Shown here: in pieces, positions 2,464 to 32,378 of the stretch
How positions within the stretch are numbered: position 1 is the first letter of the stretch
Layout: each line of letters opens with the position of its first letter
Origin: Paralichthys olivaceus
Taxonomy: Eukaryota; Chordata; Actinopteri; Pleuronectiformes; Paralichthyidae
Length of the DNA stretch: 64,000 bases
NCBI RefSeq assembly: GCF_024713975.1
Contig: NC_091096.1
Coordinates: 7,140,001-7,204,000, forward strand
Direction: 5' to 3'
Notes under the pieces: generated by a model
The model's database searches: none
Seen by the model: the letters and a program-made list of their open reading frames with translations, nothing else
Told to the model about the DNA's origin: nothing
Program-made: the position numbers and the translations under genes

Positions 2464-5400
2464 CTGTGGGAGAAAGCGAGAGAGAGAGAGAGAGAGAGAG
2501 AGAGAGAGAGAGAAAGAGAGAGAGGGGTGGAGAGATGGACAAGAAGATATAGAGAAGAAAGAAAGAAAAAGAGAGAAGTGATGTAAAGAGGTAAAGATGA
2601 GGAGAAAAAGAGGGAGGATGGGGGAGACTGAGTGTGTGGATGCTGGTCAACATTTTGAGGGGGGGGTCACACATTCAACAGGGAGGCAATTTATCATAGA
2701 GGAGGTGGGGAAAACGTGCAAGTTCTATAGAAATTTTGTAAAAAACTGCAAAGGAGCAAAGGGCAGGCAAACGAGGGAGTAAAAAAAGAAGAGGAGGTAC
2801 TTTCTTTATGGCGGAAATGTCACCAAACACGCATGGTAGTGTTCTTTAAATAATTACAATAAATAAAAAGAAATAAGGCCACTGCAGAAAATCTGAATTT
2901 GAGAAATTCTATTCAAGCCAGAGTGTCTTTTTTACGCACAGAATAAATCCGCATTAAGTGTTGCGGCATCATTGGTTTCCAGTTCACACACATTAAGAGA
3001 AAGCACTGCACCACTGGGAAAAAGAAAACATTCAAAAAAAGGAGGGAAGTTTTCCTGAAATATAGTTTTGGTTTCTCCTGTTACCATACTCACCATCTTT
3101 AGACAGAGAGAACAGAAGAGAGGAGGGGTGTTGACACCAAGATGGAGTGAAAGAGAAAACATGGAGAACAGTGGGAGAGTGATAGTAAGAGAAAGAAAGA
3201 CAAAAAAACACAAAACAAAAAACAAAGATAACAAGTCAAGTCAGATCGGACACAGAAGAATATATGATGAGCGCTATATGATCCAAACTCATTTATTCTG
3301 ATAAAACATCCAGCAGAGCAGTGAAATATCATATACTGTGAAACATAAAGCAAATCAGAACTCCATGTCATATTTTTCTCTAAGTGATGACCATAGACTG
3401 TAAATAATGATGGACAATGTGTCTCCACTTCTGTCCACTATCCAGAAATGAGGGTAAAAAGAGTCTGTGCAGTGGCGATCAGGGGATGGAGCCACGGTAG
3501 CTATGTCCCATCAATACATGTGCTCGACCAATCACGAGTCAGTCTCAGCGGTCAATCATGACGTCTCACCCATTTTCATAGCATCAATCTTAGAAAAATC
3601 AGCACTGGAACAAACATCAGTGATAAAAACTAAAATGACAGAAACTATCTTAGAGAAAAACATATCTAATGTGTACTTTGACTTCTTTACTTGTCCCATA
3701 TTAACATGGAGGAGGCAGCATTTATTACATGTACTTCAGCCAGCCACCGGGTGGCTATCAAAACGCTTTGGCTTCACTTTTGGGGGCTGTCATGTCGTCC
3801 ATCTTTCCATACAGTCTATTATCATGAATGGACAATATCAATACACCGCACTTTGGCGTTGAAGTTTATTCTTAAACTTTGGATCAGCAGCTAAAAATCA
3901 ACTTTAATCAAATGGAATTTTACTTTGAATAAGGGAGCAAGCTACATGAGGAAGACTCTGAGAATAAACATCCAGAAAATTGTAGTGAGTGGACACAAAT
4001 CAATACACACGTATATTTCAATTCCAATATTACATTTTTTGCATGTTTTTTTTATCGTAGCTGGAACAAACACTGTTTCATAACACAGCAAGACATTAAG
4101 ATAAATCCAGATTTTCATGAACGCACCAACATACCAGACAGAGCCAGACCCAAACATCAGCGGGCAAATTACATCAGCTGATTTATGGTAATTGCAGATA
4201 AATCGATTTTGGCATTTATCACGGCCAGTGAGTTAAAAGAATTAAAGCAAGGGAACGCTGAATATAGTGCTTGATATATTTTATTTCCAGTGACACTATT
4301 GCAGAGTTTGTCCAGCATGACTCCACTGTTGGCAACACTAACCCCCTTAACCAATGTCTGACCATCACATTTCAAACAGCCAGAGCAGCTACAGCTAGGA
4401 GGGTCGTTAGGAAGAAATTACAGAAAGAGCTGATGCAGACATGCCCCTGCAAATAACCAAAATCTTAGGGATCCTTGACCAACACCATTGTTTATGATAT
4501 GTGTTGCAAATCAGCTGATGCATCGATTCACAGTTATTTTTAAAACTCTCAAATATCCTGTATGGGTTCATGCCAAAAAGACAAATATAGCAGCGGTAAG
4601 TGATTCTTTTTTTCCATCGTAGCCTTGATGATCTAAAATGACCTCATTATTTATATCCTTTGTACAAGTCTCATCTTTAGAAGGATCTCACAAATACATC
4701 TACTCCTCACATGACTTTTTTTACTGTTCAAACTTAGATCATTAATGTACATCATTTCTTTCCAGCCTCCTCGCTCCATCTCATCCTCCTCTTCTAAACC
4801 CCTTTCTCCCAGGTTACCTCACCGGTCTCAGTGATGTCGATCAGGCCCAGCAGGTGCATGAGTTTGAGGAACATGATCACAAGGCAGACGATCCCAACTG
4901 TCTGCAGTCCCTCTGTCTCCCACCTCACACTCATCTTCCCCTCTTCTTCTATCTTGTCTTCCACGGTCCTCGTCTTTCCGTCTTCCTCTGCTACATTATT
5001 GGACTTTCTCCGCACATTTCACTCCTTCCCTTCAGTCCATTCTTCCTGACTCTGAAACCTCGTCACTCAATCTTCAGTCATCTTTTCTTGTTGTACCCTT
5101 ATTTTACTCTCCAATTCTACTTTTTTTATTTGACTGCCTTTCCCTCTCCTGTTCTCCTCCTGCTCTAAAGGATCTTCAAAGATATTCTCCACGATGAAGA
5201 TTTGCGTCTGATGGTCGTTTATATAGGTCAAGTGGATCCTAATACCTCCAGAGAGAAAAAGAGAGACAGAAAGAGAGAGAAAGAGAAAGAGAGAGAGAAC
5301 GAGAATCCCCCTCCAAAAATCGGGGCCGTAGCTTAAATCCAAAGGAAATACAAGTTCAGAGCGCAGAGATTCTCACACCACACATGTAGAAGTCGGTGTG

Positions 5401-32378: not shown

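Follow-up and report, generated by a model that had tools for sequence, protein, structure and literature searches.

The minus strand of the 64-kb window, by which we mean the whole stretch of fish DNA analysed here, holds a kcnip3 gene (KChIP3/calsenilin/DREAM) that probably carries five mutually exclusive 5′ coding exons on one core, an array most simply read as the set that preceded the duplication of the KCNIP genes and was thinned in mammalian KCNIP3. The core is complete and comprises six exons, from 2463 to 235. Its product is identical to KChIP3/calsenilin (PDB 2jul) at 169 of 196 residues, against 151/196 for KChIP2, 150/196 for KChIP4 and 132/195 for KChIP1, counted over shared residues, and 2jul calsenilin was the best phmmer match of the kcnip3 isoform. 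EF-hand_1 was detected in three stretches of the core (72.3 bits, cut-off 25.4) and EF-hand_7 at 80.7 (cut-off 30). Since the core is nearest to KChIP3 among KChIP1–4, the gene is, on its sequence, kcnip3, as an earlier note on this DNA had maintained. The coding features are listed below.

32373..32378, minus strand: first coding exon of the DREAM isoform, two codons long (Met-Gln); ATGCAG plus a donor of rank 5/4156
20658..20832, minus strand: second coding exon, DREAM/KChIP3a type; scan score 156, acceptor rank 1/4057 AGs
17177..17264, minus strand: alternative 5′ coding exon, KChIP1c/4d type, 29 residues (MDTC head); 10/29 identical to each of the KChIP1c and 4d references, weak donor of rank 280
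13582..13687, minus strand: probable alternative 5′ coding exon, KChIP1a/b (myristoylated) type, 35 residues (MGAV head); MGAVM start, donor rank 26
9548..9653, minus strand: alternative 5′ coding exon, KChIP3x/4a (KIS) type, 35 residues, predicted membrane helix; alignment to PDB 3dd4
4823..4934, minus strand: alternative 5′ coding exon, KChIP4e type, 37 residues, predicted membrane helix; 22/36 identical to the KChIP4e reference
2339..2463, minus strand: first shared core exon, with a phase-1 acceptor fitting all five 5′ exons; acceptor rank 4/4057 AGs
2148..2217, minus strand: core exon
1301..1479, minus strand: core exon of 179 nt
1092..1196, minus strand: core exon
885..947, minus strand: core exon
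235..282, minus strand: last core exon, holding the stop codon

The five core introns are compact, at 104–668 nt, in keeping with a fish gene, probably that of a teleost. The 179 nt of exon 1301–1479 equal 71 + 108 nt, a split that follows mammalian exon sizes. Mammalian KChIP genes, KCNIP3 included, have seven core exons according to a review (PMC3973911), whereas the fish gene has six; one core intron seems to have been lost, and exon 1301–1479 apparently unites what were two exons in the ancestor. Close to the core on its upstream side lies a candidate 3-nt microexon (3094–3096, minus strand, taaag/ATG/gtgagt; acceptor 3.1, donor 6.1), which would add one residue in frame if used; it may have arisen by chance, three microexon-like sites having passed the filter window-wide. 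A further candidate, 24 nt long and flanked by good splice sites on both sides, was seen at 15506–15529 (minus strand), between the MGAV and MDTC exons.

The earlier note had described five open 5′ exons on the minus strand at these positions, each ending with a phase-1 GT donor compatible with the acceptor at 2463. The exons are indeed open, their translation yields the heads that had been named, and all joins are in frame. The spacing given there, 3.5–5 kb, was close, the gaps between neighbours being slightly smaller (3.4–4.6 kb). By contrast, the label 'KChIP4-type membrane' for the exon at 4823 has to be withdrawn: this exon is of the KChIP4e type, and it is the one at 9548 that belongs to the KChIP4a/2x/3x type. 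The final base of all five exons is G, so that the codon across each junction reads GAC (Asp), and each head starts at the first in-frame ATG past the upstream stop, with a purine at −3 (5/5). The common core acceptor ranks 4 among 4057 AGs. Among 4156 minus-strand GTs the donors rank 5 (MQ), 6 (3x), 14 (DREAM), 15 (4e), 26 (MGAV) and 280 (MDTC). Scoring by frequency tables is rough here, and two genuine core donors rank 404 and 1248.

The whole window was scanned in six frames with nine reference N-termini and compared with 100 dinucleotide shuffles (listing threshold 38); for the 4e, 1c, 4d and 3x types the reference sequences did not come from curated database records. Each head scored best against its own class among the nine. 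The DREAM exon scored 156, a value reached in 0/100 shuffles; the DREAM N-terminus plus the start of the core matched 2jul calsenilin with a phmmer E of 1.1e-34, and two neighbouring cysteines of calsenilin are kept in this head. The phase of the ATGCAG exon at 32373 suits the acceptor at 20832, and ATGCAG/GTRAG arises 0.028 times per shuffle; its MQ start is presumably that of mammalian DREAM. The 3x exon scored 83 against PDB 3dd4 (KChIP4a) and 126 against the KChIP3x reference; for the 4e exon the scores were 121 with the KChIP4e reference and 63 with PDB KChIP4a, and 0/100 shuffles reached any of the four. The 3x isoform aligns with 3dd4 from residue 1, and the 4e head shares 22 of 36 residues with the KChIP4e reference. 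Judged by sequence homology, four of the five heads (DREAM, 3x, 4e and MDTC) are more than chance. We consider the DREAM, 3x and 4e heads secure, the assignment of MDTC to the KChIP1c/4d (MSGC) type well supported, and MGAV probable.

The maximal 19-residue hydropathy means are 2.36 for the 3x head and 2.42 for the 4e head (≤0.91 for the other three), and both helices are predicted to be hydrophobic enough to span a membrane. In the review, the helix motifs are given as IAV in KChIP3x and LLH in KChIP4e (PMC3973911); at the corresponding positions the window has MAV in its 3x head and LMH in its 4e head, the latter at the VKL position. The helix that marks the KChIP4e type reads EGLQTVGI...KLLHLLGLID. 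The 4e head (4823–4934) and the 3x/4a head (9548–9653) resemble each other as well (score 39, 1/2000 permutations), and PDB KChIP4a matches the 4e exon too, which suggests that the two helix heads may stem from an old tandem exon duplication.

No convincing match to further heads was found elsewhere in the window by the six-frame scan with the nine references. A KChIP4a match at 36572–36610 (39) was reached in 11/100 shuffles, a calsenilin match at 46065–46205 (52; 2/100 shuffles) lies inside a stretch read by eye as an M17 peptidase gene, and a KChIP2 match at 62143–62175 (39; 20/100 shuffles) and two calsenilin matches (40; 71/100 shuffles) are noise. When four heads were sent alone to Pfam, no family came above the cut-off, and two sub-threshold matches had E values of 0.029 and 0.16. 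Because this is a fish gene, no relative was expected among GTDB genome contigs or in IMG/VR; one 3x-isoform query to each returned 44 and 7 pattern matches, respectively, with 0 confirmed.

The genes beside kcnip3 in the window encode PCNA, an M17 peptidase and an FAA-hydrolase. The PCNA gene (about 42129–44262, minus strand; PF00705 and PF02747 in two pieces, bounds taken from open frames) lies upstream of kcnip3 on the same strand. It is followed by an M17 aminopeptidase gene that is NPEPL1-like by eye (about 45975–50218, minus strand; PF00883 in one of three pieces, the other two without a family) and by an FAA-hydrolase (FAHD2-like) gene at about 54565–55860 (plus strand; PF01557 in two pieces). 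The FAHD2-like neighbour would fit orthology, because human FAHD2A lies near KCNIP3. A published account gives Prom2, Loxl2 and Dok2 as Kcnip3 neighbours and leaves a KCNIP3–FAHD2A neighbourhood unmentioned (PMC2446394).

The MDTC and MGAV heads are those on which a narrower reading would turn, namely that only the DREAM, 3x and 4e heads are live and the other two frames are either relics in decay or open by chance. The MDTC head has 29 residues, the same length as the KChIP1c and 4d references, and is identical to each at 10/29. Its cysteines at residues 4 and 8 and its ITGTL, near the end and of the form (I/V)TG(T/S)L, stand where these references of the MSGC class have them, but MDTC replaces MSGC at its start. 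Its exon scored 47 against the KChIP1c reference (2/100 shuffles) and 55 against that of KChIP4d (0/100), and 0/1000 residue permutations reached its score against either. This fit in length and sequence speaks for a working exon, while the modest identity and the weak donor (rank 280/4156) are what a relic might leave.

The MGAV head shares MGAVM with KChIP1 of PDB 7w6n and has diverged over the rest, with 7/31 residues identical. It gave no match at the listing threshold of 38 in the six-frame window scan, and the median shuffle against KChIP1 reached 36, above the score of 32 that the head itself obtained against PDB KChIP1; yet that score was reached in 0/1000 residue permutations. The combination of MGAV, open frame and donor occurs 0.002 times per shuffle (1000 shuffles of the 39.5-kb upstream region), in a test that was post hoc, MGAV being what had already drawn attention. 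MGAVM fits the PROSITE myristoylation pattern, and the head, whose remainder has diverged, may be myristoylated. In the upstream region, ATG frames of 20–70 codons leading into a strong phase-1 donor (score ≥4) were found at three donors, exactly those of 3x, 4e and MGAV. Shuffles average 2.47 such donors (300 shuffles), about as many, so the frame count alone is no evidence, and it lends something to the idea of chance frames. Against this, both MGAV and MDTC retain the ATG context, the frame, the final G and the phase. We consider it unlikely that only three heads are live.

A second alternative concerns how five live heads would be chosen. The 5′ exons need not all be first exons; some could be spliced, as mutually exclusive internal exons, into transcripts from one or a few upstream promoters. 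AGs resembling acceptors, ranked here among 4057, precede the 3x ATG by 2 and 62 nt (ranks 130 and 122), that of MDTC by 107 nt (rank 54) and that of MGAV by 243 nt (rank 236, near the 200 of a real core acceptor). The 4e exon, on the other hand, has no good acceptor within 250 nt of its ATG (best rank 1170). TATAWAW was found upstream of two of the five ATGs, those of 4e (TATATAA at 5225) and MGAV (motif at 13834). The window's minus strand has 58 copies of the motif, at which density two of five 600-nt regions is about the chance rate; TATA boxes were set aside as evidence for promoters, and their presence at two heads only would suit internal exons. Mammalian KCNIP genes, in the review, join alternative promoters and 5′ exons to a shared core (PMC3973911), which argues against internal exons here. 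We infer a separate promoter for each of the five heads, and regard a feed from shared upstream promoters as quite unlikely.

A third alternative accepts all five heads but has the MGAV, MSGC and 4e types gained later, copied from another kcnip gene by conversion or exon shuffling. The likeness of the 4e and 3x/4a heads noted above indicates that exons of this family may at some time have been duplicated in tandem. Late copying, however, would need three separate transfers of a 5′ exon into one intron system, and the identities to the mammalian types (10/29, 7/31 and 22/36) are those of old divergence. It is improbable. Chance open frames as the whole explanation are ruled out by the homology of the heads, even though the frame count does not exceed that of the shuffles.

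We return to an array inherited from before the duplications. Going by the variants listed in a review (PMC3973911), and to our knowledge of their sequences, the MGAV (KCNIP1), MSGC (KCNIP1/4) and 4e (KCNIP4) heads are confined in mammals to KCNIP1/4, a distribution that the head of KChIP2g could alter. Kcnip1 and Kcnip4 together are sister to Kcnip2 and Kcnip3 in a published tree (PMC2446394). Because kcnip3 shares these three types with KCNIP1/4, they would predate the split between the 1/4 and 2/3 pairs, and most simply, by parsimony, all five head classes predate the first duplication. The ancestral, pre-duplication array proposed in the earlier note is thus the best-supported reading, resting on the sister pairs (PMC2446394) and on KCNIP1/4 head types in a kcnip3 gene. 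The stronger form of this proposal is about evenly balanced: that one living kcnip3 encodes, by promoter choice, each of the five N-terminal classes present ahead of the first vertebrate genome duplication, and that the restriction of MGAV, MSGC and 4e heads to KCNIP1/4 in mammals reflects secondary loss from KCNIP2/3. The review already has the transmembrane exons of 2x, 3x and 4a retained from an ancestral KChIP gene, and most variable exons widely conserved across vertebrates (PMC3973911). The pre-duplication idea is for this reason an extension of what is in print and not a break with it.

Compared with mammalian KCNIP3, the fish gene shares the core sequence and the DREAM and 3x heads on a shared core; the mammalian gene is listed with 3a and 3x in the review (PMC3973911), whereas the fish gene has three further heads. 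The mammalian set may be larger than two, a 2023 review giving three human KCNIP3 transcript variants (PMC10377897). Mammalian KCNIP1 (KChIP1a/b, 1c) shares the MGAV head (PDB 7w6n) and the MSGC head, but its core is identical to that of fish kcnip3 at only 132/195. KChIP1a and 1b are the sole mammalian KChIPs known to be myristoylated (PMC3973911).

The closest parallel to the array is mammalian KCNIP4. We take its 4d head to be of the MSGC class, and on that basis as many as four of the five head types, 4e included, occur in the array of alternative first exons of KCNIP4. Its variants include 4b, 4a, 4d and 4e, with no myristoylated head known, according to the review (PMC3973911); it differs further in its paralogous core (150/196). 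KCNIP4 transcripts span more than 1 Mb in dog, against about 32 kb for fish kcnip3, and at least five canine transcripts are expressed, with four different first exons among them (PMC7012447). The earlier assertion that the fish gene keeps more of the array than any one mammalian paralogue therefore stands by one class only, KCNIP4 already having most of them; the gain over KCNIP4 is the single class MGAV, which is the least secure of the five heads. The accompanying assertion that the array spans every known KChIP N-terminal class is supported in so far as the five heads resemble five different mammalian N-termini, in a comparison that stopped short of the heads of KChIP2g and KChIP4c. No paper on fish kcnip3 heads was among the matches listed in a literature search of titles and abstract starts, most subscription journals lying outside it, and six strings of N-terminal sequence retrieved no publication. 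Such isoforms may well have been annotated automatically in databases already.

In the working that we propose, one gene would yield five calcium sensors that share the EF-hand core and differ in their heads, each spliced to one common core acceptor. The heads would be a palmitoyl type (DREAM), an MSGC type, a myristoyl type (MGAV) and two membrane-helix types (3x/4a and 4e), and by analogy with mammalian KChIPs the head would set the location of the Kv4 channel complex and its inactivation. The heads render mammalian KChIPs cytoplasmic, myristoylated, palmitoylated or transmembrane, and KChIP2x, 3x and 4a are held in the ER, suppress Kv4 surface expression and slow inactivation (PMC3973911). 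By the same analogy, the KIS head (3x) would hold Kv4 channels in the ER and slow their inactivation, and a head carrying myristate would direct the sensor to post-ER vesicles, where it is thought to help surface traffic. The effect of the 4e head is unsettled, two published accounts being at odds: in one KChIP4e raises surface Kv4.2 and does not slow inactivation (PMC3973911), in the other it is placed with the slow, low-surface type (eLife, PMC7269670). We infer from the sequence that each isoform would be expressed, that lipidation and channel effects would follow the head, and that the MGAV head would be homologous to its class.

Such a gene would matter for channel physiology as well as for the history of the family. 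KChIP heads decide Kv4 traffic and inactivation, and two firing types of hippocampal interneurons in the rat correlate with KChIP1 as opposed to KChIP4e (PMC7269670); with KChIP1-, 4e- and KIS-type heads in one gene, the choice among them could be studied at one locus. What fish kcnip3 newly contributes is a dating of the head repertoire. The array would be the set in place before the vertebrate KCNIP genes separated, with mammalian KCNIP3 thinned to 3a and 3x. If this is true, the repertoire of heads is older than the first genome duplication, and the distribution of heads in mammals is one of differential loss, in which promoters and first exons, not coding cores, were divided among the duplicates.
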